DNA from: Candidatus Phytoplasma melaleucae
GTDB taxonomy: Bacteria; Bacillota_I; Bacilli_A; Acholeplasmatales; Acholeplasmataceae
Direction: 5' to 3'
NCBI RefSeq assembly: GCF_030588185.1
Contig: NZ_JAOSID010000001.1
Coordinates: 45,340-109,339, forward strand
DNA: 64,000 bases
Shown here piece after piece: positions 9,024 to 64,000 of the stretch (within the stretch, counting starts at the first letter, position 1; the number at the start of each line of letters is the position of its first letter). Under the pieces are notes generated by a model. It made no database searches, was not told the origin of the DNA, and saw only the letters and a program-made list of their open reading frames with translations. The position numbers were made by a program, and so were the translations under genes.

Positions 9024-11670
<2,647 letters not shown>

Positions 11671-13388: not shown

Positions 13389-16181
13389 ATGAATAATAAT
13401 ATGAAGATAAATAAACTACAAAAAAAATTTTTACTTTTTATTCTTTTAATTTGGCTAATATTTAGTTTTATTTTTTATTATTTTAACTACTATAATATGT
13501 TTTATAATAAGCATCACCTAATAACTGTAAATAGTCATGTAATTAACAAACACAACTATATGACACAAACCAATAACAAAAATATCAAAAAATACCAAAT
13601 TATTGATCAAATTCAAAAAAATCTTCAAAGTATCTTTGATCCTGATAAATCTAATAAAAACATAAAGCCTTATAAGTTGAAAAAACATAATTTAAAAATA
13701 GGCGATGTAGTATATGCTTTTACATTAGATACTAAAGAAAATATAAAACCATTTCAAGAAGGAATTATAAGTGAAAATTACAACAAAGATGAAGACCATT
13801 ATCTAGCTATTTCAATAAAAGGGCAAAATAATAAAATTTTTTTTAATGATGAAGGAGAATTTATAGGTATTTCTTTGCCTAAAAAAGAATACGATGACGA
13901 AATAAATTATGTAATAACTTCTAACAGTATGTATAATTTTTTAGAATGTGCTCATATATTTTATAATGAAGAAAATTTTCAACAAAATAACAACCAAAAT
14001 TTCGATAAATATTGGTTACCTATTCAGTTCAAAAAGAAAGATTTTAAAATTTCTTTAGACAAAGAAGGTTTATTTTTAGGTTTATTGCATAAAGAATTTA
14101 TGTCAAATTGGGATACATTAAACGAATGGTTATTAAAATGTTCTATATTAATAGATTTTATTGAACAAAAAATGGTTGATACCCAAAAAAATCAATCTAA
14201 TTTTATCCAAAATATATCTGATATTACTTTTGTAATTATGTTTGGCAAATACCTAGGTTCAGGTTTTATTTATAAAATAGAAAAAATAGAAAATACTAAT
14301 TCATATAGATATTACCTTTTAACTAATAGGCATGTTATAGAACCAATAATTACATCGGGAGAATTAAAAACAAAAATGAGAATAGGTAACTCATATTTTT
14401 TAGTTAAAGAAGCCGAAGTATTTGCTTATATCAAAAATGAAAATGTCTATGATGATATAGGTATCATTGCATTTGAAGACCAAGACCATCAAAAATTTGC
14501 CAAAATAAGTCAAATTTTAGAATGTGTCTTCCCCAAAGAAAGAGATTATGATATTGAACAGGGCAATGAAATTTATAGTATGGGATCACAACAAATAATC
14601 AACCCTGCAGTTGATTTTATAATCCCGCAACAAACAAAAAATGAAAATAACTCTCCTAAGGAAGAAAAAACAGAAGATCAAAACTTTTTTTTAAAAGCTT
14701 TCAAACAAATAAAAAGAACGGAAATCAATTTATTAAAAAAAGGGAATATAATTAATTTTAATGAAAAAGCCATTTATTTTAATATTGAAATTGATCATGG
14801 TAATAGCGGAGGACCTGTTTTCAATCGAAAAGGACAAATAATAGGTATTAATAGAAGTACTATTGAAAATAGTTATACAACAGACAATTATTCCCAAGCT
14901 ATTAATATCATGCATATAAATGATAGATTAGACGAAATAGAAACATTAATAAAAAAAAATAAAAAAATTGATTATGCGATTGAGTTTCAAGGAGATGATC
15001 ATCAAAGTTACTTAAACGACAAAATCAATTCATTTAAAAAACATTTTAACGCAGAAACTATCAACCATAACTCAAATCAAAAACTAACTCTTTTCATCGA
15101 TGAACTCTTTTATTTAACCCCTAAGAGGCATCACATTGAATTTCCTTTGCTGCAAAACAATAATCAACAACAAAACATGAAACTACGTATCAGTCTTGTA
15201 TATAATCTTTTCCAACAACAAACATTTTTAATAAACCCAATTGATGAATATATACAAATTCATATTAAAAAGAACTTTAAAAATAAGAAAGTTATCATAG
15301 AATTTGTTAAAAAAAACAAAAATAATCAAGTTTTAGATAGTACTAATTATGAACTAGAATACAAACCAAACTCTTATTTTTTATCCTTTGAAATGTTTAA
15401 CCTTGACAACTTACATACCAAAACAAATTATGACAATTTTCAAAAAATAAAAAACTCTTTGGTTATTTGGAATCAAAATGAATATATAAGCGGGAATGGG
15501 GTTATTCTTAACAAAAAAAGAACAGAGAATAATAAATTCTTATATTTAGTATTATCTACTTATCAACCTTACCACAACATTAATATATGGGATAGTATCG
15601 GAAACATAATCATGAACCAAATGCTTAATATTCAAACAAACATTATTATACCTATTGACAAAGGAAAATACAGAAAAGAAAAAGGATATTTAAAAAATTT
15701 TATTGGGGCAGATAATATACTTTTAATAGCTTTTGAATCTGCTTATGATTATCCTGTTGTAAGCGTTAAAAAAACATCAAATTTAAATATTGGTGAAAAC
15801 ATATATTATCTAATTAATTTTGAAAATACAAATCATTTTCCACAAATGTTTAAAAGCCAAATAAGCAGTATTAAGAAAAATTTATTTATCTTTGACTCTG
15901 TTTTTGATTTAAAGAACAAAAAAAAGCAAATTAATTTTTTTTGTTTCGATGAAGAAGGAAATTTTATAGGTATAAATGATATTATTCAAAACCATCTTAC
16001 TATTCCTTCACATTTTATTAAAGCTTCTTCAATCAGCAAACACGCTCTTCAAAAACTTTTTATCCAAAGCATATTAAAAGATAATATAAACATTATTTTT
16101 TCTTTTTTGTTTTTGGCAATTATCTTTTTTATTAGTATAAGTATTTTACCAACTAAGAATAAAAATAATTTTTTCATATAA
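13389..16181 (+). CDS. Large doubly anchored surface protein with a trypsin-like protease domain
   Basis: A 930-aa protein with a Lys-rich N-terminus, a membrane segment at about residues 14-32, and a second membrane segment near the C-terminus followed by a short basic tail. Most of it should therefore lie outside the cell, tethered at both ends. The central part is a trypsin/HtrA-type protease: GSGFIYKI, LLTNRHVIE (His315), YDDIGIIAF (Asp355 or 356) and EIDHGNSGGPVF (Ser473). The motif after the serine, GQIIGINR, has echoes before it (GEFIGISL about 157, GLFLGLLH about 227) and near the C-terminus (GNFIGIND). A GNGVIL...YLVLSTYQP segment in the C-terminal part mirrors the His strand without the His. 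So it probably carries degenerate protease-like repeats around one active domain. An AAAGGAT site is close to the ATG at 13389; M5 at 13401 is an alternative. Confidence 0.75.
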   Translation: MNNNMKINKLQKKFLLFILLIWLIFSFIFYYFNYYNMFYNKHHLITVNSHVINKHNYMTQTNNKNIKKYQIIDQIQKNLQSIFDPDKSNKNIKPYKLKKHNLKIGDVVYAFTLDTKENIKPFQEGIISENYNKDEDHYLAISIKGQNNKIFFNDEGEFIGISLPKKEYDDEINYVITSNSMYNFLECAHIFYNEENFQQNNNQNFDKYWLPIQFKKKDFKISLDKEGLFLGLLHKEFMSNWDTLNEWLLKCSILIDFIEQKMVDTQKNQSNFIQNISDITFVIMFGKYLGSGFIYKIEKIENTNSYRYYLLTNRHVIEPIITSGELKTKMRIGNSYFLVKEAEVFAYIKNENVYDDIGIIAFEDQDHQKFAKISQILECVFPKERDYDIEQGNEIYSMGSQQIINPAVDFIIPQQTKNENNSPKEEKTEDQNFFLKAFKQIKRTEINLLKKGNIINFNEKAIYFNIEIDHGNSGGPVFNRKGQIIGINRSTIENSYTTDNYSQAINIMHINDRLDEIETLIKKNKKIDYAIEFQGDDHQSYLNDKINSFKKHFNAETINHNSNQKLTLFIDELFYLTPKRHHIEFPLLQNNNQQQNMKLRISLVYNLFQQQTFLINPIDEYIQIHIKKNFKNKKVIIEFVKKNKNNQVLDSTNYELEYKPNSYFLSFEMFNLDNLHTKTNYDNFQKIKNSLVIWNQNEYISGNGVILNKKRTENNKFLYLVLSTYQPYHNINIWDSIGNIIMNQMLNIQTNIIIPIDKGKYRKEKGYLKNFIGADNILLIAFESAYDYPVVSVKKTSNLNIGENIYYLINFENTNHFPQMFKSQISSIKKNLFIFDSVFDLKNKKKQINFFCFDEEGNFIGINDIIQNHLTIPSHFIKASSISKHALQKLFIQSILKDNINIIFSFLFLAIIFFISISILPTKNKNNFFI

Positions 16182-19012: not shown

Positions 19013-20203
19013 TTACTTGGACACAATAAAAGAAAAAACATCTCTAGCGATAACTATTTCTTCATTAGTAGGCACAACTAAAACTTTAACAGATGAATCT
19101 GGAGTAGAAATAATTCTTTCTTGTGTTGAAGATGTTTCATTGATCTCTGTATCTATATAAATATGCAAAAATTTTAAAGATTTCAATACTTCCCTACGTA
19201 CAAAAGAAGAATTTTCACCTACCCCCGCTGTGAATATTAAACAATCAACACCCTTTAATAAAAAATAATAACTCGCAATATAATCAACAATACGACTAAT
19301 TTGTACTTCGAAAGCTAACAAAGCTCTTTCGTTATTTTGTTTTATCATTGCTTCCAAATCTCTACAATCATTAGAAATACCAGAAATACCTAATAACCCT
19401 GACTTATGAATCAAATCATTTATAACTTCTTGAGCAGTTTTTTTTTCTTTTTCAGCTATAAAAGAAATAATAACAGGATCAATATCACCACTGCGAGTCC
19501 CCATAGGAACTCCTGATATAGGGGTAATTCCCATTGAATTAGCAACAGAACAACCATTTACATCTACAGCAGTTATAGAAACGCCGTTTCCAATATGACA
19601 AATAATTAACTTAAGATCTTTTTGTTGAAACATTTGATGTACTTTTTGTACAACGAAACGACAGGAAGTACCATGAAATCCATATTTTCTAATTTTATGT
19701 TTAATGTACCATTCATAAGGAACCGCGTATAAAAAATTCTTTTGTGGAACAGTCTGATGAAAACTAGTATCAAAAACTCCTACATGCAACGCTTCAGGAA
19801 AAAAATTTTTAAATAACTTAATCCCCACAACATTAACAGGATTATGAAGAGGTGCTAAAATGCCTAATGCTTCAATTTGCATAATATTTTCATCTGTTAA
19901 AATAACTGAATTGTTAAAAATCTCTCCACCTTGAACTACCCTATGCCCTACGCCTTTAATTTCAGTTATTGCACTAATAATTTTATTTTCGATTAAAGTT
20001 TTTAACAACAATTCAACAGCATGTTTATGATTCAAAATAGACAAAACCTGTTGTTGTGTTTGATTTTTAGATCTAATTTTAAATAAAGCATTATCGTGAC
20101 CAATTCGTTCAATTAAACCACTGCAAAGCACTTCTTCTTCTGGCATATTTAATATTTGAAATTTTAAAGAAGAACTCCCTGTATTCACAGACATAATTTT
20201 CAT
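19013..20203 (-). CDS. ackA: Acetate kinase
   Basis: Makes ATP and acetate from acetyl phosphate. Family motifs: VNTGSSSLKFQIL at the N-terminus, HNPVNVVGIK, FDTSFHQTVP (catalytic Asp), RKYGFHGTSCRFV, ICHIGNGVSITAV, MGTRSGDIDP and FTAGVGENS. The 396-aa length is standard. It is the last gene of the citrate cluster, after a 170-base gap with a stem-loop. In phytoplasmas AckA is thought to harvest ATP from organic acids through acetyl phosphate. Placed here it would do so for citrate. Confidence 0.96.
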   Translation of the reverse strand: MKIMSVNTGSSSLKFQILNMPEEEVLCSGLIERIGHDNALFKIRSKNQTQQQVLSILNHKHAVELLLKTLIENKIISAITEIKGVGHRVVQGGEIFNNSVILTDENIMQIEALGILAPLHNPVNVVGIKLFKNFFPEALHVGVFDTSFHQTVPQKNFLYAVPYEWYIKHKIRKYGFHGTSCRFVVQKVHQMFQQKDLKLIICHIGNGVSITAVDVNGCSVANSMGITPISGVPMGTRSGDIDPVIISFIAEKEKKTAQEVINDLIHKSGLLGISGISNDCRDLEAMIKQNNERALLAFEVQISRIVDYIASYYFLLKGVDCLIFTAGVGENSSFVRREVLKSLKFLHIYIDTEINETSSTQERIISTPDSSVKVLVVPTNEEIVIARDVFSFIVSK

Positions 20204-20254
20204 AATTATAATATTTCTCCTAAGCTTTTTTATAAATCATTGTTTTATTTGTGA

Positions 20255-20289
20255 TTTGGTATAAATATCATTCTTTATCTGATACCAAA
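20255..20289. promoter_or_regulatory. Stem-loop in the citX-ackA gap
   Basis: TTTGGTAT (20255-20262) pairs with ATACCAAA (20282-20289) around a 19-base loop, with an alternative inner TATCA/TGATA pairing. There is no T run on the minus strand side, so it may uncouple ackA expression from the cit genes by partial termination or RNA processing. That role is inferred. Confidence 0.4.
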
Positions 20290-20375
20290 AAATTTTTTTG
20301 TTAGAAAAAGAAATAAAATAAAAAAACCTAATATTTTAACTAATAAGAAAAATCAAACTAATTATCTTTTTATAT

Positions 20376-20921
20376 TTAATGAATATAAAAATTCACAAAA
20401 GTATTTATTTTTTGTTCAATAAAAAACAATAACTCTTGCAAAGTATGATTTTTCTGAATAGCGCAAATTTTAGCATACTTATTACATAAAAAACATTTTC
20501 TTGGATTAATATTTAAATTAGTTCTAATAATAGATTTGTGATGGATGTTTATTACATCCATATCTAATAATTGAAAAATAGAATTGGATTGTTCTAAATA
20601 AATTAATGTCTTTTTTATGTGTATTAATTTCAACATATTTTTTGTATTTAAAATAATATTAGAGTAAAGACCAGCATCATCACTAACGATAATAAAATCA
20701 TCATTCAAACAAAATTTATTTATTTGTAAAAATTTAGATAAAATATTCACCATAATGACTTGAAAAAAAATACAATATAAAGAATTATTTTTATTTGGGC
20801 CAGGAATATTTAAATTTACAGTTAATAAACCTTTCTGATATTGTTGTAAAAGGGTTTGTTGGTATAAATACCGTTTTTCTCTTGCTTCAAGAATATGAGA
20901 GATATAGTTTTTTTCTACCAT
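20376..20921 (-). CDS. citX: Apo-citrate lyase phosphoribosyl-dephospho-CoA transferase CitX
   Basis: Transfers the prosthetic group from triphosphoribosyl-dephospho-CoA to the acyl carrier subunit CitD. Recognisable family landmarks are ILEAREKR near the N-terminus, LTVNLNIPGPNKN, a short Glu/Leu-rich LLDMDVI segment corresponding to the family DxDV motif, and the C-terminal CFLCNKYAKICA cysteine cluster followed by an HTLQEL helix. The protein is 181 aa, normal for stand-alone CitX; in some bacteria it is fused to CitG. It follows citF by 67 bases. Confidence 0.85.
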   Translation of the reverse strand: MVEKNYISHILEAREKRYLYQQTLLQQYQKGLLTVNLNIPGPNKNNSLYCIFFQVIMVNILSKFLQINKFCLNDDFIIVSDDAGLYSNIILNTKNMLKLIHIKKTLIYLEQSNSIFQLLDMDVINIHHKSIIRTNLNINPRKCFLCNKYAKICAIQKNHTLQELLFFIEQKINTFVNFYIH

Positions 20922-20988
20922 TTATGCATTAATGTATAACAAATATTCAAATATTCAATTTTATTTTTAAATCTATTAAAAAGGAACT

Positions 20989-22536
20989 TTATAATGAGAA
21001 TTTTTCAGATTTGTAAACAACATCAATTAAAGTACCATCTCGATATTCTATTAAAGCAATTATATGATTAGTGTTATATATTATTTTCTCAGGTACACCT
21101 ACAATACTGTATGCTAAATCGCGTAATTCCCTAATATCTTTTGTAGGCACTTGATTATTCTTAAAAATCTCAATTAAATCAGATCTTAAAGGATTAACAG
21201 CAATTCCTACATCAGTTACTAAAATATCCACAGTGTTCCCAGGTGTGACTACTGTTTGAACTCTGTCTACAACGGAAGAAATACGACCTCTGACCAAAGG
21301 AACAGCTACAATAGAAATTTTGCTTCCATAAGCCACGTCGCTGTGGCCGCCTGAAGCTCCTCTTAAATAACCATCAGCACCAGTAATAACATTACAATTA
21401 AAATTAACGTCTATTTCTAAAGCACTTAAGATACCATAGTCTAATTTATTTACAGCACACCCCTTAATAAAAGGATTAGCATAAAAAGAAGCTGACATTT
21501 CTAAATGATTATTATTTTCCCTTAAAGAACGAATAGCTGTTAAATCAAAAGATTGCACATCTAATAATTTATCTACTAAATTTTGTTTTAATAATTCTAC
21601 TTGCGGCTGAATAATACCTCCTAAAAAAAAAGAAGCTTTTATTTTTTGTTTCATCATGACATCAGTTAAAATCATTAAAGAAGCTTGAGAAGCTCCACCA
21701 GTACCGGTTTGAAATGAGAATCCATCTCTAAAATAAGGAGTATTAATTATCACTTGGACAATATTCTCGGCAATTTGGATTTCTTTTGGTTTAAACACAG
21801 AATGAATTTCACCTGAAGAAATTTTGGAATTATCTCCGATATTATCTATTTGCACTACGAAATCGACATAAATCTGCGGAATAGAAATAGGACTATTTGG
21901 ATAATCAACTAAAGAATCAGTAATAATAACAGTTTTATTAGCATATTGAGCATCTACCATAGCATATCCTAAAGAACCAACACAAGAATCACCTTTTACT
22001 CCGTTAGCATTGCCCATTTCATCACTACTAGAAGCCGCTAAAAAAGCTACATCAATACGAGGTTCACCTGTGCTTATATATCTAGCTCTTCCCCCATGAG
22101 AACGAATAATTACAGGTTTTAACAAAACACCTTCAGAGATAGCATTGCCTAATTCCCCTCTTATAGCTGAACCTTCTAAAGCAGTAACTACTCCTCTCTG
22201 AATATAATCAATAAAACAATCATGTGATTTAGTAAAGGAAGAAGCTAAAACCGTCAAATTTTTAATATTTAACTTATCGATGACCTGCATAACACGCAAA
22301 AAAGTTTGATCTCCATGCCTAAAAGCATGATGAAAAGAAATAGTCATCCCATCTTTTAAACCACTTTTGTTAATAACTTCTTCTAAAGAACTTACAATTT
22401 TACTTCTTAATAAATTATTTTTATTTTGCAAATTAAAATAAAGATTTCCTGGCTTTGAACAACTATCATAACTTTTGTAAGTATAATTATTATCTTTATT
22501 AATCTTATTTAATTCTTGATCATTTAAATATTTCAT
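20989..22536 (-). CDS. citF: Citrate lyase alpha subunit (citrate:acetyl-ACP transferase) CitF
   Basis: Exchanges the acetyl group on the acyl carrier subunit for citrate, giving citryl-ACP. The 515-aa protein has the CoA-transferase-like features of CitF: GMTISFHHAFRHGD, VIRSHGGRARYISTGEP, AASSSDEMGNANG, FQTGTGGASQASL and GASGGHSDVAYGSKIS. Length is typical of the family. AAGGGATA precedes the ATG. It lies 65 bases after citE, with citX next. Together with CitD and CitE it makes the complete lyase core. Confidence 0.97.
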   Translation of the reverse strand: MKYLNDQELNKINKDNNYTYKSYDSCSKPGNLYFNLQNKNNLLRSKIVSSLEEVINKSGLKDGMTISFHHAFRHGDQTFLRVMQVIDKLNIKNLTVLASSFTKSHDCFIDYIQRGVVTALEGSAIRGELGNAISEGVLLKPVIIRSHGGRARYISTGEPRIDVAFLAASSSDEMGNANGVKGDSCVGSLGYAMVDAQYANKTVIITDSLVDYPNSPISIPQIYVDFVVQIDNIGDNSKISSGEIHSVFKPKEIQIAENIVQVIINTPYFRDGFSFQTGTGGASQASLMILTDVMMKQKIKASFFLGGIIQPQVELLKQNLVDKLLDVQSFDLTAIRSLRENNNHLEMSASFYANPFIKGCAVNKLDYGILSALEIDVNFNCNVITGADGYLRGASGGHSDVAYGSKISIVAVPLVRGRISSVVDRVQTVVTPGNTVDILVTDVGIAVNPLRSDLIEIFKNNQVPTKDIRELRDLAYSIVGVPEKIIYNTNHIIALIEYRDGTLIDVVYKSEKFSL

Positions 22537-22601
22537 ACTCTGTTTATCCCTTAATATTTTTCTATAAATCAGCGAATCAAAAACTTATTCTCCTAAAACT
22601 T

Positions 22602-23489
22602 TTAATTCTCTAAAGGGTTTTTGATATTAGCTTTTTGCAAAATATTTTCTGCATTTTGTATAACAGGTTTATCAATCATTTTGCCTTCAATAGCAAAAAC
22701 ACCTTTATTATTGTGACGATATTTTCTATATAAATTTAAAATTTTTAAAGAATCTTCGATTTCTCGCGAATTTGGAGTAAAAATACGATTAATAATCGGT
22801 AATTGAATAGGGTGTATGGCAGATTTTCCGTTAAACCCTAATTCTTTCACGATAAGTGATTCTTGCTCTAATCCTTGTAAGTCTTTAACATTATCATAAA
22901 TACAATCAATAGCATCAATATTTGTTGCTCTTGCTGCATGTAAGATCATCTGACGAGCAAAAAGTAATTCATGTCGAGTTATAGTTTTAGTAGCTTGTAA
23001 GTTTAACATGTAATCTACTCCTCCTAAAGCAATCCCAACTACTCTAGGAGAAGCTGATGCTATTTCATATGCATTCAAAACCCCTTGAGCGCTTTCTATT
23101 GCACAAAATAAAGATATTCGCTTATTTTTATTCATTTTTTGCTCAATTTCTTCAATATCATGAATAACTTTTAATACATCTTTTTTAGATTCTGTCTTTG
23201 GTAAACGAATTACATCAGCTTTTGAATCAGTTACTATAGCTTTTAAATCATCCGCATAAAAAACTGTATCAAAATGATTAATTCTAACAACAGTTTCAAT
23301 ATTATACTTATTATAATTAAAAAAATTAATCATTCTTTTGGTTAATTCTCTCGCTGCGTCTTTTTCTTGAATACTTATAGAGTCTTCCAAATCAAAAATA
23401 ACACTATCCAGATTATACGAAATAATATCTTTGAATAAAGCTGGATTATTACCTGGTACAAATAACATAGTTTTTCTATTTTTTTTCAT
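22602..23489 (-). CDS. citE: Citrate lyase beta subunit (citryl-ACP lyase) CitE
   Basis: Cleaves citryl-ACP to acetyl-ACP and oxaloacetate. It belongs to the HpcH/HpaI TIM-barrel family: MLFVPGNNPALF start, DSVIFDLEDSI metal-binding segment, VVRIN, VIRLPKTES, AIESAQGVLNAYEIA, GIALGGVDYM and GFNGKSAIHP. At 295 aa it is standard length. AGAGGCAT lies at ribosome-site distance. It follows citD by about 100 bases. CitE paralogues exist outside citrate lyase, but here the neighbours settle the assignment. Confidence 0.97.
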   Translation of the reverse strand: MKKNRKTMLFVPGNNPALFKDIISYNLDSVIFDLEDSISIQEKDAARELTKRMINFFNYNKYNIETVVRINHFDTVFYADDLKAIVTDSKADVIRLPKTESKKDVLKVIHDIEEIEQKMNKNKRISLFCAIESAQGVLNAYEIASASPRVVGIALGGVDYMLNLQATKTITRHELLFARQMILHAARATNIDAIDCIYDNVKDLQGLEQESLIVKELGFNGKSAIHPIQLPIINRIFTPNSREIEDSLKILNLYRKYRHNNKGVFAIEGKMIDKPVIQNAENILQKANIKNPLEN

Positions 23490-23592
23490 TAAATGCCTCT
23501 ATGCCTCTATTATTACATCTTTAATTGAGATAAATAAACAATTATCTCTTATAATTTTTCAAATTTAATTATGCAAAGTAAATAAAAATAAA

Positions 23593-23895
23593 TCAAATAT
23601 CATTATACTTTTGTGCACGACGTAAAGCTGTAACAATTCTAGCTTTTAACACTTCGTCAATAGCTCCCTGATCCTGAATAATTAATTTACAACTTACAAT
23701 TTGATGTTCTTTTAAAATATTTAAAGATATTTGCTTTATTTTGGCGCCAAATTGTCTAATAAAAGGAGATTTAATAAAAATATCGATTTTATTATCTGGA
23801 TTAGGTTCCATAATGATCAAACAATCACTAGATTCTAAAGAACCACAAAAAACTTTTTGAAGTATTTGTGGAATAACGATTTTATTTGTTGACAT
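23593..23895 (-). CDS. citD: Citrate lyase acyl carrier protein (gamma subunit) CitD
   Basis: Carries the phosphoribosyl-dephospho-CoA arm that holds the acetyl or citryl group. The 100-aa sequence has the attachment motif GSLESSD, with Ser22 in the position of the modified serine. DKIDIFIKSPFIRQFG and the C-terminal ALRRAQ helix also fit the family. Its start overlaps the end of the aldolase-like gene by 14 bases, implying coupled translation. Confidence 0.94.
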   Translation of the reverse strand: MSTNKIVIPQILQKVFCGSLESSDCLIIMEPNPDNKIDIFIKSPFIRQFGAKIKQISLNILKEHQIVSCKLIIQDQGAIDEVLKARIVTALRRAQKYNDI

Positions 23896-24562
23896 AAAGA
23901 TGCTTTTCGCGCTCTCTTTCTGTTGTTATATGTTTGACGATATTAACGTATTTAATCGCTAAAGAAGCTATTTCTTGTTCATCGACTAAACCCCCATGTT
24001 CATCGCTACCTAGAACTCCTGTAATACCTACAGCCCAAACCCCTGCTTTAAAATAAGAAATGATATTAGTCAAATCTACTCCACCTGTAGCTAATATTTT
24101 AAAGTAAGGGAAGGGATTACTAATTAATTTTAAAGTTTCAGGCGAAAAGCAACTTACAGGATAAACTTTTAAAAGTGAAGCTCCTTTTTGAAACACATAA
24201 TACATTTCATTAACAGTCATAACACCAGGAATATATAAAATATTCTTTTCTAAAGCCCATTTCAAAATATCTTCATTATAAACTGGAGAAACTAAATATT
24301 CGGCTCCTGAATGAATAGCTTTTTGAGCTTCTTTAAGAGTTAAAACAGTCCCTGCACCAATAGTAGCTTGGGGATATTTACGGCTTGTCTCTTCTATTAA
24401 TGTGTAAGCATTAGGAATAGTTAATGTTACTTCTGCAAAACTAAAACCATTTTCTAATGTATTTTTAAGAATCCTGCAAGCATTTTCAAATTTTTTAGTT
24501 CTTACAATTACGCTTAAAGGGCTTTGCTTTAAATTTTGAATAATATTTGTAATAGATTTCAT
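23882..24562 (-). CDS. KDPG/KHG aldolase-family protein, candidate oxaloacetate decarboxylase
   Basis: A 226-aa class I aldolase of the Eda family. The catalytic residues are kept: Arg21 in SVIVRTKK, Glu44 in FAEVTLTIP, and the Schiff-base Lys132 in LLKVYPVS. ATIGAGTVL and the phosphate-binding FKILATGGV segment are also present. No Entner-Doudoroff genes are seen here. The gene sits inside the citrate cluster and overlaps citD. Eda of E. coli is known to decarboxylate oxaloacetate as a side activity, so the inferred role is oxaloacetate to pyruvate plus CO2, replacing the sodium-pump decarboxylase of other citrate fermenters. The family call is firm; the substrate is a guess from context. 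Confidence 0.85.
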   Translation of the reverse strand: MKSITNIIQNLKQSPLSVIVRTKKFENACRILKNTLENGFSFAEVTLTIPNAYTLIEETSRKYPQATIGAGTVLTLKEAQKAIHSGAEYLVSPVYNEDILKWALEKNILYIPGVMTVNEMYYVFQKGASLLKVYPVSCFSPETLKLISNPFPYFKILATGGVDLTNIISYFKAGVWAVGITGVLGSDEHGGLVDEQEIASLAIKYVNIVKHITTEREREKHLYVNK

Positions 24563-24689
24563 GTTAAAAAGAATGACCTCTTTATCTTATTTTTTTCAAT
24601 TAACAAATAAATTTTTTCAAATAAGTTCCAAAAAAAAGAACAAATAAAGATAGAATAAACAATTCCAAACAGATAATATTAGCTAAAAA

Positions 24690-25562
24690 TTAAATAATTT
24701 TAAAATAAGAACTAACAAAAAATAAAAAACAGGTAACAACACTGAGATCAGCACAACCACCAGGAGATATTTTTTGTTTTTGATACATTTCATTTTTATT
24801 TAAAATTTCTTTTCGAAAAGATGTAAAATCTTTTTCATCTAAAATACTTAACCAAAGAGCTGCTTGCTTCTGAATAATTTTATACTTAGCATAACCTATT
24901 TTCATAATTAAAGTAGTATCATCAATCATTTTTAAATAAAAAATCAGGAGACATAAATAAAGTTCATATTTAGTTAACATAGGATATTTAGAAGTACATT
25001 TATGAGCAAATGGAAATCCGCATAAAAAAATGTTTTTATATCCAGATAAGGCTTCTCCTCGCGCTCCTTTAATACCATATTCTTGAAATATTTTTTCCCC
25101 TTTAGTCCTATTATTAAAAAAAACAAAATCTTTTTTCACATCTTGAGCTAATATCTTTACTAAATTTTGCCACAAACCAAAAGATATTCGGTGTATTAAA
25201 CCATAAAGAGTTACATAATAAATAATACCAAAAACAAAAATTAATCCCTTATGGGTATTAATATTATTAGTACTCTTAAACATTCTTTTTTCTTGTTGGA
25301 TTCCTATAATTCTTAATTGGTTAAAATTTAAATTTGGTTGTTGCGATGCTAAATGATTAATTTGAACAAAATAAAAATAGAAAGTATGTTTAGACTTTAA
25401 AAAAGTAGCAATATTCATATCTACATGACAACCACAATTAAAATAAGAAACTAAACCTAGAGCCGGATAACATAGTAATTCGCTTTCTATAGACTGAATA
25501 GCTATATCAATTAATTTGTTTTGTAAAAAAGCCAAAGATACGGCTCCATTTAATAACTTCAT
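24690..25562 (-). CDS. citG: Triphosphoribosyl-dephospho-CoA synthase CitG
   Basis: Makes the citrate lyase prosthetic-group precursor from dephospho-CoA and ATP. The 290-aa protein matches CitG/MdcB landmarks: an early SELLCYPALGLVSYFNCG segment (family YPKPGLV...N.G), then DMNIATFL, a GIQQEKRMF segment, THKGLIFVFG, GARGEALSG, and the C-terminal PGGCADLSVVTCFL. Length is normal. It lies between the transporter and the aldolase-like gene; with citX it supplies the biosynthetic half of the lyase system. Confidence 0.9.
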   Translation of the reverse strand: MKLLNGAVSLAFLQNKLIDIAIQSIESELLCYPALGLVSYFNCGCHVDMNIATFLKSKHTFYFYFVQINHLASQQPNLNFNQLRIIGIQQEKRMFKSTNNINTHKGLIFVFGIIYYVTLYGLIHRISFGLWQNLVKILAQDVKKDFVFFNNRTKGEKIFQEYGIKGARGEALSGYKNIFLCGFPFAHKCTSKYPMLTKYELYLCLLIFYLKMIDDTTLIMKIGYAKYKIIQKQAALWLSILDEKDFTSFRKEILNKNEMYQKQKISPGGCADLSVVTCFLFFVSSYFKII

Positions 25563-25619
25563 ATAATTCTCTTCAACAAAATTAATCTTTTTTTATTTTG
25601 AATATCATTCCTAATAATT

Positions 25620-27137
25620 TTAAATACCAGGATTAATAGAGTAAAATAAAGGAAATACAATGCTAGCTATGATAACTGTTAAATCGCCCCCAATACGAGT
25701 AGCTATTTGCGCATAAGGAGTAAGTTTTAATGCATTGGATGCTTCTAAAATAGCTATATTACCTGCTCCACCAATGCTATTAGCACAAAGACCAGCTGCA
25801 ATTGAAGATTGCACAGGGTAAAAGCCTACTTTATTACCTATAATAGCAGCAACTAAAGCAGTAGTACCAACACATAAAATACAAGTTGATAAAAAAGCTA
25901 AATCTACCATTTTATTCATAACTATACCGATATTAATATTTACCCCTACTACAACCAAAATACAAGATGAAAAAGTCTGAGTAATAAATTGAGAAGCTTG
26001 ACTGATACTTTGAACATAATTATCCGAAATCAAATCAAAAAATTTCACAAGTAAAACCAAAAGAACTAAGAAAATAATAGTTGGTGGAAGATATTTAGCG
26101 ATATTCTCACTAAGAACTAATTTTAATAATAAAAATCTTAAAACATTACTAAATATATATAAAGCAAAAATCGCTACTAACCCTGTTTTAATACGACTTA
26201 AACTAGTTTTTTCAATTAAAGTTGAATTTTTTGTATGATTTATGGATTTTTTTTGTATTTGAACTAAGTTTTTTTGATCAGGTACAGTAAGTTTTTCTAG
26301 ATCACCATTAGGACTACCATATTTACTATTACCAAAAATTTTTTTAATTAATCCACCAAAAATAACACTTATAATACCACCAATTAACAAAGAAGTTATA
26401 ATATGAGTTTTAAAAAAATCTTCATAAATAGGTATTCCTTGTGAAAAAACTTTTACTAACGGAATAATGCCACATGTAAGACCGCCACAAGAAATAGGAA
26501 CAAAAATATAAAAAATAGAATTCAAAAAATTATTATAACTGCTATTAGGAATAGTATTAATCCCCCCAATAGGTCTAAAAAGAATACCTGCTATCCCCAC
26601 TACAATGGCAGAAATAAATAAAGAAACAATAACCAAAGACAAAAACTTTATTCCATTTCTTTTCAAAATATCTTTTCTAATACCTAAAAGACTACCACAA
26701 ACCAAAGAAGATACAAACAATTCTGAAAAACCTATGCTAGAATTTTTATTAAAATAAGATATTTTTTCTCGAAAAGCTGCTTGGAATTGGAAAAAACGGT
26801 TTGAGATTTCAGAAGGAAAAAAATTATAATTGAAAATAAATGCTGGAACAAGCAAACATAAAATAGCCCCCCCTCCTATATCTTTTAGAATAGGGGTTTT
26901 TTTACCTATCACTTTTAAAATTTCAGCTAAAACCATGGTGAATAATAAAACAGATATCAAATGATGCCAAGAACTAGTAAAGATGCCCTGGGAAGCATCG
27001 TAAGCAATCCATATATGCATAATCGTGATAACTAAAATAATCATTATTAAACTTAATGGAAATCCCAAAATATCTATTTTAGGTTTAATATTATTTTTAG
27101 AAACATTTTGTTTTTCGGAATGATTTAAATTGATCAT
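25620..27137 (-). CDS. 2-hydroxycarboxylate (citrate/malate) symporter, CitS/2-HCT family
   Basis: Cation-coupled importer of citrate, malate or related acids. The 505-aa protein has about 11-12 hydrophobic helices, and the C-terminal half carries the family signature GGAGNIAILEASNAL, then ATRIGGDLTV with the conserved substrate Arg. The equivalent loop of the first half reads SCGGLTCGIIPLV, which departs from the GGxG pattern. A charged loop of about 45 residues splits the two halves. Phytoplasmas are known for a malate carrier of this family. Its place directly before citG and the lyase genes argues for citrate as a substrate here, which is inference. Confidence 0.9.
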   Translation of the reverse strand: MINLNHSEKQNVSKNNIKPKIDILGFPLSLIMIILVITIMHIWIAYDASQGIFTSSWHHLISVLLFTMVLAEILKVIGKKTPILKDIGGGAILCLLVPAFIFNYNFFPSEISNRFFQFQAAFREKISYFNKNSSIGFSELFVSSLVCGSLLGIRKDILKRNGIKFLSLVIVSLFISAIVVGIAGILFRPIGGINTIPNSSYNNFLNSIFYIFVPISCGGLTCGIIPLVKVFSQGIPIYEDFFKTHIITSLLIGGIISVIFGGLIKKIFGNSKYGSPNGDLEKLTVPDQKNLVQIQKKSINHTKNSTLIEKTSLSRIKTGLVAIFALYIFSNVLRFLLLKLVLSENIAKYLPPTIIFLVLLVLLVKFFDLISDNYVQSISQASQFITQTFSSCILVVVGVNINIGIVMNKMVDLAFLSTCILCVGTTALVAAIIGNKVGFYPVQSSIAAGLCANSIGGAGNIAILEASNALKLTPYAQIATRIGGDLTVIIASIVFPLFYSINPGI

Positions 27138-27228
27138 ATTTATCTATTGCCTTCCCCTTTCTTTGTTATTTTCCTAAATAAACCAATATTTTTATTTAAT
27201 TTTTTTTCGAAGATCATAAAATATACCC

Positions 27229-27759
27229 TCAATAATTATAAATATTAAGTTTGTCTAACAAACGATTGGCAAAATCAAAAACCGTTAAAGGAGACTGAGA
27301 AGTAATAAAATTATCACTAACAACAGTTTTGCAATTGCTGCAATATATGCCACCCGTAATATTAGATTCATACCCCGGATAACATGTAAACGAATGATTT
27401 TGTAACAAACCAATCCTGCCTAAAAATGAAGGAGCAGCGCAAATAGCTGCAATAATTTTTTTCTTCTCGGCAAAAGATTTAATTATATTTAATACTTTAT
27501 GTAAATCTTGATTATTGCTTCTTAATAAATTTTGGACATAAGGACCACCAGGAATGATTAAAAAACCATATTCATCACAAACCACTTTATCAATATGCAT
27601 ATCCGCCTTCACATGAAGTTCTTGCGAGGAAACCACTTGCAAAGAATTATTCGGAGCGCAAGTAATTACATCAAAAGCATTTTGTTTAATAATTGCTCTT
27701 GTTGTAACAGCTTCAGTATCTTCAAAACCGTTATATAAAATTAATAATCCTTTCACCAT
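27229..27759 (-). CDS. DJ-1/PfpI family protein
   Basis: A 176-aa class I glutamine-amidotransferase-like protein of the DJ-1/ThiJ group. The acidic residue in GFEDTEAV (about Glu13) and the nucleophile elbow IIAAICAAP (Cys107) are intact, and LIIPGGPYV is typical. The biochemical role of such proteins is uncertain: glyoxalase, deglycase or redox chaperone functions have been claimed. It is the first gene of the strand-wise run leading into the citrate cluster, 91 bases ahead of the transporter, so it may be co-transcribed or simply a neighbour. Confidence 0.85.
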   Translation of the reverse strand: MVKGLLILYNGFEDTEAVTTRAIIKQNAFDVITCAPNNSLQVVSSQELHVKADMHIDKVVCDEYGFLIIPGGPYVQNLLRSNNQDLHKVLNIIKSFAEKKKIIAAICAAPSFLGRIGLLQNHSFTCYPGYESNITGGIYCSNCKTVVSDNFITSQSPLTVFDFANRLLDKLNIYNY

Positions 27760-34091: not shown

Positions 34092-35465
34092 TTAAAATCT
34101 CAAAATTAAAAAATTTGAAAAAGTTATTTGATTACAAGTTACTTTTTGGTTTAATAATCGAATTTGATAAACATTATTTTTTTTGGCAGTTTGAGAGTAA
34201 AGAAAAATCAACATTAACTGAGATATTCTTTGCTGTGTATTCAAAACAATATCAGAAGCTTTATAAGGATTTCTTTGGTTTAAAAGTTTTTTTACAAAAA
34301 GTTCAATATTCGATTTAGTATAAAAAAGATCTTTATTCAACAAAGAATTTTTTTTTTGCTCAAGACGATATTGAGACTGTGTTGGAATCATTTTAAGCGG
34401 AGGTGTGATAATGCTTCGTTTTTCTCTGCGAGGTTTATAAAAAGAAAATTGATCTAAATTTCTTATCTGGTAAAGATTAAATAAGTTATTATATTCTTGT
34501 GTTATACTAAGGATTATTTTAATTCCATAATTTAAAAGATTCTGTATATTTTTCTTATTATCATAAAATAGGATTTTTTGGCAAACTATTTGAAGATACT
34601 GTTCATTTTTTCTATCTATAACTTCTATAAGTTTGTCTGCTATTTTTAAGTTATCTTCCATTTCTTGAATTTGTCTTACAATAACTACAACATTTTCTTT
34701 TGCATTTCTTTTATTAATTTCACTCAACTGTTCACTAAGTAGTTGCATATAGAAATCTTTTGTACGAATTTTTTTTAAAAACAAATTAATCTTGCCGCGA
34801 TATTTAAAAAAATTATCTGCAGTTTTTAACAAATAATAAGAAGAATCAAAAAAATTTTTTTTGTAATCCAATAATAATTGTTGGAGAATATTATTAATGT
34901 TAATATCGAAATTAGCATGTAATAATTGATAATAAAAACGGTAGATATTAGCTTGTAAAATTCTTAATTTGATTAAAAGATTCTGTGTTTTAACAACAGC
35001 TTCATGGAAATTAGCATAATTCTTTTCCATTAAAAAAAGTCTCAAAAGAGAATAAATACTATAAATATTACCAATAGATTCTGGCTTGACTTGGCGAAGA
35101 GTTTTTTTAAAAAAATGAATCATTTCTAAACTATAATCAAATAAAATCAAATAACTAGTATTATAATTAAATCTTTCTTCTCCCAACCAACCATTTCTTT
35201 TTAATAAAGTAATAATTTTAGATGCTTTTTGATAATGATTAATCGTCATTTGTTGATTTGTTTCTTCTTCAATTAAGACTTTATTTTTATCATTAAAATA
35301 TTTTTCTAAGCTTGTTAACGCTAAGTTTTTATTAATATAAGTATTATGATCTTCTTTAGATAGATAATCTAAAATCAAAAGACAATCTATATAAATATCC
35401 TTATTAGGAGAAGATAATAATGTAAAAAAATTAGATGGTAAAATTTCAAATAACGAATGAGACAT
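34092..35465 (-). CDS. JetA-like (DUF5716, Wadjet kleisin-type) protein without its partners
   Basis: A 457-aa soluble protein. The N-terminus FEILPSNFFTLLSSPNKDIY and the following IDCLLIL match my memory of the JetA/DUF5716 family, the MukF-like kleisin of the Wadjet (JetABCD) complex that destroys plasmids. Later family-like stretches are ASKIITLLKRNGWLGEE (winged-helix region), YSIYSLLRLF, KNLIKLR-type helices, and a C-terminal EQKKNSLLNKDLFY ... NPYKASDIVLN region. Wadjet needs the SMC-like JetC, JetB and the nuclease JetD, and none is in the neighbourhood. It may be a remnant, or a kleisin with another partner. It is monocistronic and divergent from the nitroreductase gene. Confidence 0.65.
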   Translation of the reverse strand: MSHSLFEILPSNFFTLLSSPNKDIYIDCLLILDYLSKEDHNTYINKNLALTSLEKYFNDKNKVLIEEETNQQMTINHYQKASKIITLLKRNGWLGEERFNYNTSYLILFDYSLEMIHFFKKTLRQVKPESIGNIYSIYSLLRLFLMEKNYANFHEAVVKTQNLLIKLRILQANIYRFYYQLLHANFDININNILQQLLLDYKKNFFDSSYYLLKTADNFFKYRGKINLFLKKIRTKDFYMQLLSEQLSEINKRNAKENVVVIVRQIQEMEDNLKIADKLIEVIDRKNEQYLQIVCQKILFYDNKKNIQNLLNYGIKIILSITQEYNNLFNLYQIRNLDQFSFYKPRREKRSIITPPLKMIPTQSQYRLEQKKNSLLNKDLFYTKSNIELFVKKLLNQRNPYKASDIVLNTQQRISQLMLIFLYSQTAKKNNVYQIRLLNQKVTCNQITFSNFLILRF

Positions 35466-37565: not shown

Positions 37566-38903
37566 TTAAACAGTAATAACTTTTAAAGCAGCTAAATTAA
37601 ATAAACTAAATGGTTTGTTATAATGAGGATTGAAAAAAGAATCTATAAAAGCTAAATCTTGCATAGTCATTTTTTGTTGTATGCATAAACTTAAAGTGTT
37701 AATTTGTTCTAATACATTAGCAGTAGATAATATTTGCCCTCCCAAAATTTGTTGAGAGTCTTTATTAAAAACTACTTTAAACAATACAGAATTATATTCT
37801 GGCATAAATTCAGGTTGATCAGCATCTTTTACTATTGTTGTCCCATAGTTAATACCTAGTTGTTTAGCCATATATTCAGTCATTCCGGTAGAAGCAATAT
37901 TTAAATCATAAATTTTAATAGCGCTAGTTCCTTGAGTACCCAAATATTTAAATTTGTTTTCTTTAATATTCAATCCTATGATTGTACCTGTTTTAACAGC
38001 ATTAGTAGCTAATGGAATATATTTATTCTCTTTAGTGGGATTATATAAAACACTAATACAATCACCACAAGCATATACATCTTTATTAGAGGTTTGTAAA
38101 AATTCATTAACTACTAACGCACCATTGCTGGTAGTTTCTAAACAATTGTTTACAATTTTAGTATTTGGCGCAAAACTAATACATAAAATCACCATTTCAG
38201 TTTCGAAAACATTTTGATTGGTTTTTACACAAGTGATTAAATCATCTGTAGTTTCTAATTGACTAAGTTTTTGGCCTAAAGCCAACTTAACATTATGTTT
38301 TCTGAATTTATCTTCAGCTAAAGTAGTAAATTCTTCATCTAAATATTTAAACATAATTCTTGGTTCAGCATCTATTAAAACAACTTCTTTGTCTTGTAAC
38401 GAAAAAGCTTCAGCCAATTCTACTCCAATGTAACCAGCTCCTATAATTGTAATTTTTTTTACATTAGCAGCATATTTAATAATATTATTAGCATGCTCAA
38501 AATTCTTACATAAGAATAGATTTTTTGATTCTATTCCTTCTATTTTTGGAATAACAGGCCAAGACCCTGTAGATAATATTAATTTATCGAAAGAATCAAC
38601 GAATTCTTGTTTATTTTCTAAATTTTTAACTAAAATTTCTTTTTTATCAAAATCTATGTGTAAAACTTCATGTTTTAAATAAACATTAGCTCCCATTTGA
38701 GATAATTCCTCCGGATTAGAATAAAATAAACCTCTTTTGTCTTGTACCACCCCACCAACATATAAAGCTATCCCGCATGATAAAAAAGATATATTATTGT
38801 TTTTTTCATAAACAGAGATTGCAACATCGTCTCCGTAATTTTTTTTAATAACCTTAACAGCAGCAGTTCCGGAATGAGTACAACCTACAACAATAACTTT
38901 CAT
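37566..38903 (-). CDS. nox: NADH oxidase / CoA-disulfide reductase family flavoprotein
   Basis: FAD- and NAD(P)H-dependent oxidoreductase with a single redox cysteine. The start at 38903 (MKVIVVGCTHSGTAAV) gives the FAD-binding beta-alpha-beta fold at the N-terminus, with AGGTG upstream; the longer open frame adds a hydrophobic stretch that does not belong. Catalytic Cys43 is in ISFLSCGIALYVGG, the NAD-binding fold in ITIIGAGYIGVELAEA, and VYACGDCI is the second FAD motif. Product 445 aa. In a fermenting cell it would reoxidise NADH using oxygen; CoA-disulfide reduction is the alternative. Confidence 0.9.
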   Translation of the reverse strand: MKVIVVGCTHSGTAAVKVIKKNYGDDVAISVYEKNNNISFLSCGIALYVGGVVQDKRGLFYSNPEELSQMGANVYLKHEVLHIDFDKKEILVKNLENKQEFVDSFDKLILSTGSWPVIPKIEGIESKNLFLCKNFEHANNIIKYAANVKKITIIGAGYIGVELAEAFSLQDKEVVLIDAEPRIMFKYLDEEFTTLAEDKFRKHNVKLALGQKLSQLETTDDLITCVKTNQNVFETEMVILCISFAPNTKIVNNCLETTSNGALVVNEFLQTSNKDVYACGDCISVLYNPTKENKYIPLATNAVKTGTIIGLNIKENKFKYLGTQGTSAIKIYDLNIASTGMTEYMAKQLGINYGTTIVKDADQPEFMPEYNSVLFKVVFNKDSQQILGGQILSTANVLEQINTLSLCIQQKMTMQDLAFIDSFFNPHYNKPFSLFNLAALKVITV

Positions 38904-39139
38904 TGTCACACCTACTTTCTTATTATTTTTTATGTTAAGCAGAAATATTTTTACTAATAAAATAATGTTTTGAAAATATAAAAAAACCAAGTTCTCTCAA
39001 ATTATTGATAAATATAATCAGAATTAAGAAATTCTTACACACACTTATTATAACATAATCAAAATCAATTAAAAAGTTATAACTAGAAAAGTCGGAATGA
39101 AAATAATTATGAATGAATAACTGAAATTAAAGAAATGCC

Positions 39140-63869: not shown

Positions 63870-64000
63870 GATGGCGGATAGAAATATTGCGCCTTGTTTA
63901 AATAAATCAGGTTTCAATATGCCCCCCCCCAAACCGGACAGGCCAGTCTCCTGGCATCCGGCTTTCCAAGTGCAACTTGCAAAAGGGCATCAACCTTTCC
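63870..64000. other. Terminal 131 bases of different composition
   Basis: About 50% GC compared with roughly a quarter before it, including a run of nine or more C. An ATG at 63871 opens a frame of 43 codons with no stop to the window end (starts MADRNIAPCLNKSG), without a ribosome site. Either foreign integrated DNA or an assembly artefact. Origin not recognised. Confidence 0.6.

Follow-up and report, generated by a model that had tools for sequence, protein, structure and literature searches.

A phytoplasma citrate lyase cluster with an aldolase-family gene predicted to encode an oxaloacetate decarboxylase

A 64-kb stretch of the genome of 'Candidatus Phytoplasma melaleucae' (contig NZ_JAOSID010000001.1; the whole stretch analysed is called the window) carries on its minus strand, at 19013-27137, a row of open frames for citrate lyase and its cofactor enzymes, a 2-hydroxycarboxylate (2-HCT) carrier and acetate kinase. 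Within this row lies a gene of the Eda family of 2-keto-3-deoxy-6-phosphogluconate/2-keto-4-hydroxyglutarate (KDPG/KHG) aldolases. From comparisons of sequence, we propose that the cluster probably encodes citrate lyase, its cofactor enzymes and an aldolase-family protein likely to serve as oxaloacetate decarboxylase, which together would feed citrate carbon to pyruvate and ATP. Citrate genes of phytoplasmas were already known; the role proposed here for the aldolase appears to be new. The original prediction described adjacent citrate genes, carrier and AckA on one strand with short gaps or overlaps; every gene it named was found, and it overlooked the aldolase-family gene at 23882-24562. The span it gave, 19013-27759, holds the citrate row and also a DJ-1/PfpI gene (dj1, 27229-27759) which is not a citrate gene.

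Results

The aldolase-family gene is tied to citrate lyase by joint occurrence. Among 29 phytoplasma genomes (the genus set), citF matches were found in nine; eight were intact and the ninth, in 'Ca. P. mali' (G010), was a 43-residue piece with a stop. The aldolase-family gene was present in exactly those nine genomes, and was open in 'Ca. P. mali' as well. Absences within the genus set are soft because several of its genomes have a completeness of only 75-90% (the window's own, 83%). In Mycoplasmatales, the order that includes Mesoplasma and the Spiroplasma-like genomes, citF occurred in 10 of 320 genomes, and each of the ten had an aldolase copy 1.2-3.2 kb from citF; the tenth, G284, was counted from coordinates only and stands outside the 18 aligned rows and the trees. 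Aldolase matches were found in 28 of the 320, the other 18 having only more distant copies, without citF. A second copy was present elsewhere in G498, G627 and G641. No aldolase relative was detected (blastp, 1e-4) at 38 citF loci from lactic acid bacteria and other non-mollicutes; eight of these hold less than 20 kb, so a gene lying farther off might have escaped the search. Six loci with Acholeplasma-type CitF likewise showed none. A malic-enzyme-like gene was found near citC in all three lactic acid bacterial loci tested.

Gene order varied among nine Mycoplasmatales loci. Spiroplasma-like G498 shared the phytoplasma order citG-eda-citD; elsewhere eda came after citC or citG. The Mesoplasma lactucae row read carrier-citD-citE-citF-citX/GntR-citC-citG(opposite)-eda-alsS-alsD; NCBIfam confirmed the last two as alsS and alsD. 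These two genes, which represent a pyruvate-consuming step, were near in three of the nine loci: that of M. lactucae, G625 with the same eda-alsS-alsD order, and G641, where they lay a few genes away. Fusion of CitX to a GntR-family domain was seen in two Mycoplasmatales (Table 1).

In the aldolase tree all 17 linked copies fell in one clade (99/96), which also contained the relatives P0012-P0015, P0017 and P0018; the 'Ca. P. mali' protein grouped with P0012-P0015 (98/84), two of which, P0012 and P0014, are full length and carry a Spiroplasma-like label. The G498 copy, a stop-shortened open reading frame (ORF) that does not cover Glu45, and a Thermotoga maritima segment were dropped from this tree.

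The window aldolase scored 144.5 bits against the NCBIfam eda model (TIGR01182), under its cut-off of 156.05, and was 31% identical to E. coli K-12 Eda over 148 positions; its AlphaFold2 model had a mean pLDDT (predicted local distance difference test score) of 95.9. Residues were compared by sequence alignment of 18 linked copies, numbered as in E. coli K-12 Eda. Glu45, which we take to be an active-site residue, was kept in all 17 copies that reach its position, and Lys133, Thr161 and Gly163 were kept in all 18. Lys133 corresponds to the Schiff-base residue of KDPG aldolase (PMC8964421, as far as its available text goes). In every one of the 18, Pro160 was replaced by Ala and Gly183 by Thr, and Ser184 was lost (10 Gly, 7 Ala, 1 Glu). 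The window protein keeps both Gly162 and Gly163 and has Thr-Gly for Gly183-Ser184, so that the phosphoryl site, given as G162, G163 and S184 for E. coli Eda in the available part of PMC3962226, is incomplete. Five unlinked mollicute copies kept Pro160 and Gly183 and had Ser (two), Gly (two) or Asn (one) at position 184; the T. maritima aldolase kept Pro160, Gly183 and Ser184. Judged from this alignment, Thr183 and Ala160 are cleaner markers than the loss of Ser184, and Ala160, Thr183 and the missing Ser184 together give a sequence marker for this aldolase type. Loss of Ser184 would fit a small substrate without phosphate, and is no proof of one. E. coli Eda itself is stated to be an oxaloacetate decarboxylase too (PMC9034593, in the portion available).

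Edd (PF00920) was found in none of the 29 genus genomes and in all 14 controls; therefore the genus has no Entner-Doudoroff source of KDPG. The OadA domain of biotin-dependent oxaloacetate decarboxylase (PF02436) was likewise found in none of the 29, with 7 of 14 controls positive.

The genome of 'Ca. P. mali' holds what appears to be the remainder of such a cluster. After its open eda, and on that gene's strand, come a broken citD and a piece of citF that is broken too; about 17 kb away a frame-broken citG adjoins a 2-HCT carrier of the window carrier's clade; its Eda was 91.4% identical to P0013. In the available text of earlier work this protein was proposed to be a KHG or KDPG aldolase (PMC3322544), pyruvate formation independent of glycolysis was suggested through it (PMC3322544; PMC3743221), and the genome paper, in the part available, found no complete ATP-yielding pathway (PMC2459194). 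On the present reading, 'Ca. P. mali' Eda belonged to a citrate operon and has outlasted its other members; as eda survives beside cit remnants, the orphan would be explained and the protein reinterpreted.

In the order of transcription, the window row is dj1, 2-HCT carrier, citG, the aldolase-family gene, citD, citE, citF, citX and ackA. Intergenic gaps along it were 57-172 bp, and the stop of the aldolase-family gene runs 14 bp into the start of citD. CitF, CitD and CitX exceeded NCBIfam equivalog-type cut-offs; CitE and CitG were under the NCBIfam cut-offs and over those of Pfam. The GSLESSD motif of CitD is presumably the attachment site. The dj1 gene has no known pathway membership and also adjoins the carrier in citF-negative phytoplasmas. 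A scan for promoter-like and terminator-like sites was uninformative (68 against 63.0 expected, and 4 against 2.6 expected, respectively).

Table 1. Positions of the citrate row and of other features discussed; coordinates without a prefix are those of the window
Feature	Position	Strand	Evidence
ackA, acetate kinase, 396 aa, final ATP-yielding step	19013..20203	-	TIGR00016 481.3 bits, cut-off 293.4
citX, holo-ACP (acyl carrier protein) synthase of citrate lyase, 181 aa	20376..20921	-	TIGR03124 123.8 bits, cut-off 105.25
citF, citrate lyase alpha subunit, 515 aa	20989..22536	-	TIGR01584 653.9 bits, cut-off 501.45
citE, citrate lyase beta subunit, 295 aa	22602..23489	-	PF03328 211.6 bits over 25; TIGR01588 308.3 bits, below cut-off 443.4
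citD, citrate lyase acyl carrier protein, 100 aa, GSLESSD motif	23593..23895	-	TIGR01608 72.2 bits, cut-off 63.5
Eda/KDPG-KHG-aldolase-family gene, 226 aa, predicted oxaloacetate decarboxylase	23882..24562	-	PF01081 116.1 bits over 27.8
citG, triphosphoribosyl-dephospho-CoA synthase, 290 aa	24690..25562	-	PF01874 151.4 bits over 27; TIGR03125 181.8 bits, below cut-off 272.3
2-hydroxycarboxylate carrier, 505 aa, malate and/or citrate	25620..27137	-	PF03390 279.5 bits over 26.2
DJ-1/PfpI family gene, 176 aa, conserved carrier neighbour	27229..27759	-	PF01965 117.9 bits over 26.6
930-aa protein	13389-16181		trypsin-like peptidase domain
JetA-like (Wadjet) protein	34092-35465		PF18982 193.9 bits
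NADH-oxidase-like gene	37566-38990		453.2 bits, under cut-off 600
Group II intron domain	63871-63966		RF00029
citC-like ORF, other contig of the same genome	G000:C19:38614-39588		243.3 bits, under cut-off 262.1
'Ca. P. mali' remnants and open eda	L071 9251-10350; L212 7831-8527
Group II introns of relatives	L060 7299-7405, 11103-11210; L063 2318-2424; L064 7001-7106; L065 1183-1290; L069 19-125		RF00029
Open citC of G012	L076 6847-7968
Aldolase of G498	L165 ~9310-9960
CitX-GntR fusions, Mycoplasmatales	L083 11412-12584; L166 8499-9644
CitDEF-like locus, other Acholeplasmatales genome	L174 9249-13398

The JetA-like protein of the window has relatives that neighbour dj1 and the carrier in G007, G011 and G016, and the 930-aa protein lies on the strand opposite to its neighbours.

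A gene for citC was absent from the row, and we considered whether it was missing from the genome. This was rejected; a full-length citC-like ORF lies on another contig, 52-60% identical to the citC genes that lie close to the cit clusters in G009, G024 and G498, with a DnaE-like gene near it. The neighbourhood of citC is similar in G003, G005, G006, G007, G012 and G016, and citC is near the cit cluster in G009 and G024. Matches to citC were found in 10 of the 29 genus genomes (the eight with intact citF, G012, and a fragment in G006), one of which passed the curated cut-off; those of G005 and G008 were pieces only. G012 has an open citC and no citF or eda match, which may reflect a relic, an assembly gap or another role.

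The site of the cluster is itself conserved. The citF-negative genomes G015 and G021 have the row dj1-carrier-ackA-thyA-dhfr-plsC without cit genes; in them the carrier and ackA frames are 406 bp and 411 bp apart, respectively, where the window has the six genes of the cit block, and no cit remnant was found in these two gaps. This shows that the carrier and ackA form a backbone into or out of which the cit block moved. Loss from a block-bearing ancestor is favoured because of the 'Ca. P. mali' remnants and the orphan citC of G012.

In the CitF tree, of which the bootstrap was not fully settled and from which L121, a partial match, was dropped, the eight phytoplasmas fell on one side of a branch (99/97), followed by Spiroplasma-like G498 (100/100) and then by the other eight Mycoplasmatales rows (100/98), apart from 37 rows of lactic acid and other bacteria and six Acholeplasma-type rows. 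The gene tree suggested by the original prediction, which asked whether the genes group with Acholeplasma or other Firmicutes, thus placed CitF with Mycoplasmatales, G498 being nearest, and not with Acholeplasma-type or lactic acid bacterial rows. Acholeplasma as donor was rejected; the six loci read (G050, G071, G147 and G155, with G166 and G199 from a search of the class) were all outside the citrate clade. A search of the order outside the genus gave 38 CitF matches, 38-44% identical, and the surroundings of four were read. GC content of 2-kb bins at 18-28 kb was 0.263-0.289, within a whole-window range of 0.203-0.296. Recent foreign insertion of citrate lyase is not supported by synteny, tree or composition, and the earlier view that composition like that of the neighbours speaks against recent transfer was borne out by all three.

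The carrier exceeded the 2HCT Pfam cut-off. In its tree one phytoplasma clade, apart from the Mycoplasmatales carriers, held 8 cit-linked rows, 17 rows from citF-negative genomes and one from 'Ca. P. mali'; this tree has long branches and some compositional bias, and leaves out the split or short 2HCT matches of G027, G001 and G009 and one of two same-score G010 copies. The 2-HCT family matched 27 of the 29 genus genomes, and members of the clade adjoin malic enzyme in G004, G017, G019 and G023. Because the clade is common to citF-negative phytoplasmas, citrate specificity of the carrier is unproven. We also considered a citrate carrier co-transferred with the lyase genes; this was not supported by the tree, given the mostly citF-negative rows of the clade and its separation from Mycoplasmatales carriers.

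Ratios of nonsynonymous to synonymous substitution (dN/dS; Nei-Gojobori) were calculated for up to four pairs of relatives (G003-G008, G003-G005, G009-G024 and G007-G016), the window's own genes being in no pair, from stop-to-stop frames that may begin a few residues ahead of the true start. They were 0.07-0.18 for citF, 0.15-0.19 for citE, 0.20-0.27 for citD, 0.17-0.26 for citG, 0.09-0.22 for eda in four pairs, 0.25-0.53 for citX and 0.10-0.48 for the carrier; in one pair, ackA gave 0.10 and thyA 0.19. Group II introns (RF00029), in the same orientation as the genes, interrupted citG in G003 and G005; another lay between citE and citD in G003, and others lay at the citC break in G005 and G008. 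Reverse transcriptase or reverse transcriptase/maturase ORFs accompanied three that were checked. The window has a group II intron domain of its own close to its end.

Discussion

In the proposed route, citrate would be imported by the 2-HCT carrier and split by citrate lyase, if it acts as its family does, into acetate and oxaloacetate. The aldolase-family protein would convert oxaloacetate to pyruvate and CO2; decarboxylation could start with a Schiff base between the active-site lysine and a 2-keto acid, here oxaloacetate. Pyruvate would pass to acetyl phosphate by way of pyruvate dehydrogenase and a PduL-type phosphotransacetylase, and AckA, as its family predicts, would yield ATP and acetate. 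Genes for pyruvate dehydrogenase and PduL are reported for 'Ca. P. sacchari' in the available text of PMC10577292. The NADH-oxidase-like gene of the window could recycle NADH. We infer flux through this route in the plant; if this is true, citrate in plant sap would be an energy source open to the cell. The citrate branch to the AckA step that was originally predicted is thus sustained by the lyase cluster beside ackA; the gene for the step from oxaloacetate to pyruvate had been missed, and citrate import by the carrier is unproven. We regard as evenly balanced a broader suggestion, that phytoplasmas, spiroplasmas and mesoplasmas share a dedicated oxaloacetate decarboxylase derived from KDPG/KHG aldolase, apart from sodium-pumping Oad and malic-enzyme-type CitM, and that 'Ca. 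P. mali' Eda, under discussion since 2012, is all that still works of such an operon, retained to turn imported or internally made oxaloacetate into pyruvate.

Several observations weigh against the proposed role of the cluster. The carrier is not of the CitS type, by its tree or by NCBIfam, in which it fell under the cut-offs of CitS (149.6 of 600 bits) and ccs (205 of 549.05 bits). The phosphoryl site is partly changed, with Gly162 kept in 16 and Gly163 in all 18 linked copies, and such a change is not needed for the activity, since E. coli Eda decarboxylates with an ordinary site; Ser184, moreover, is absent from three of the five unlinked mollicute copies (two Gly, one Asn). The G498 aldolase has an in-frame TAA under code 4, the second copy of G627 is 42% identical and far from citF, and alsS-alsD was not seen in six of the nine Mycoplasmatales loci. 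A group II intron stands at a break in citG or citC in three relatives. Malic enzyme matched 28 of the 29 genus genomes, the window's own included (G000:C18), and malate dehydrogenase has already been proposed, in the available part of PMC4518686, to decarboxylate oxaloacetate.

That wide occurrence of malic enzyme leads to the alternative to be taken most seriously, which we nevertheless think unlikely: the lyase works, a SfcA/MaeB-like malic enzyme decarboxylates oxaloacetate, and the aldolase does otherwise, for example by cleaving 4-hydroxy-2-oxoglutarate. Use of oxaloacetate by a MaeB-like enzyme has been proposed (PMC4518686), as have the KHG and KDPG aldolase roles of 'Ca. P. mali' Eda (PMC3322544), both in the text available. 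Malic enzyme as the decarboxylase leaves unexplained, however, the tie of the aldolase to citrate lyase in nine of nine phytoplasmas and ten of ten Mycoplasmatales and the position of eda before alsS-alsD in M. lactucae, and a KDPG-related role has to face the absence of Edd from the genus set. It is improbable that the cluster is a decaying relic which no longer supports citrate use. Its patchy occurrence, with citF intact in 8 of the 29, would suit decay, as would the 'Ca. P. mali' remnants, the citC that stands alone in G012 and the introns in citG and citC of relatives; on the other hand, all the window genes are open, the genome retains a full-length citC-like gene elsewhere, and dN/dS in the pairs of relatives was 0.07-0.27 for citF, citE, citD and eda, though it reached 0.53 for citX and 0.48 for the carrier.

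Citramalate or a related acid, in place of citrate, is a very improbable substrate of the lyase. CitE is under its equivalog cut-off, and a CitDEF-like locus of another Acholeplasmatales genome, the one locus so tested, contains methylaspartate mutase and ammonia-lyase; CitF, however, is over the citF equivalog cut-off, a 100/100 branch parts the window CitF from the six Acholeplasma-type rows with lactic acid bacteria on the window's side, and methylaspartate genes were not found in the cluster. As an observation in its own right, the CitDEF-like genes of that other locus (L174) likely encode citramalate lyase, and such genes may be miscounted as citrate lyase; it is the one of the six Acholeplasma-type loci annotated as a methylaspartate/citramalate cluster, the others being alike by ORF size only. 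That the contig is a contaminant or chimera is hardly credible. The assembly is in 24 contigs, but the same row occurs with or without cit genes in other phytoplasmas, composition is homogeneous, estimated contamination is 0, and CitF nests among phytoplasma CitF; the dj1-carrier-ackA-thyA-dhfr-plsC synteny of G015 and G021 strongly disfavours a chimera. We prefer the reading in which the aldolase-family protein would decarboxylate oxaloacetate from citrate. With a gene assigned to the oxaloacetate step, what had been a possible use of citrate becomes a complete pathway that can be tested, with a clear prediction in the culturable relative M. lactucae; if correct, this would bring one more protein family into the set of citrate-fermentation decarboxylases.

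Citrate genes as such are not new to phytoplasmas. They were described, with citrate use proposed, for peanut witches'-broom (PnWB) phytoplasma NTU2011 (Chung 2013; PMC3633829), and as citXFEDG for 'Ca. P. sacchari' SCWL1 in 2023 (PMC10577292), in the text available for each; given these publications and the eight genus genomes with intact citF, citrate lyase is found in several phytoplasmas though not in most; the original prediction had said that presence in most would make it no longer new, and this has come about in part. The cit genes of Spiroplasma eriocheiris are noted as close to those of PnWB in the available part of PMC4607517. Both NTU2011 and SCWL1 resemble the window in citF, citE, citG and related genes. 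The main text of Chung 2013, in its available form, does not contain the terms 'eda' or 'aldolase', and the SCWL1 passage on the cit cluster names no aldolase, whereas the window row includes an aldolase for which a role is proposed, and a citC-like gene is here located off the cluster as well. A role of the aldolase in citrate fermentation was not found in the literature searched, as far as its available text goes, subscription journals and supplements being outside the scope. A 2020 review of oxaloacetate decarboxylases, in the portion available, treats biotin, soluble, malic-enzyme and phosphoenolpyruvate-mutase types, and has 'aldolase' once, in a reference title; the malic-enzyme-like type is described as a dedicated oxaloacetate decarboxylase in the available text of PMC8100219.

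Citrate operons of lactic acid bacteria resemble the window in placing the genes for citrate lyase and its cofactor close to a step that decarboxylates oxaloacetate, and they carry CitM or Oad; the three loci tested had a malic-enzyme-like gene and none of the 38 loci of lactic acid and other bacteria had an aldolase, in contrast to the aldolase-family protein of the window. With the Eda proteins of E. coli K-12 and T. maritima the window aldolase shares PF01081 and, compared with E. coli, the Schiff-base Lys and Glu45; it differs in falling under the NCBIfam eda cut-off, in having Thr-Gly for Gly183-Ser184, and in belonging to a genus without Edd. The clusters of M. lactucae and Spiroplasma are also close counterparts, with an aldolase of the same clade tied to citrate lyase as in the window; they differ in mostly having another gene order, in the CitX-GntR fusion of the two checked, and in alsS-alsD beside the cluster in M. 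lactucae and G625 and near it in G641.

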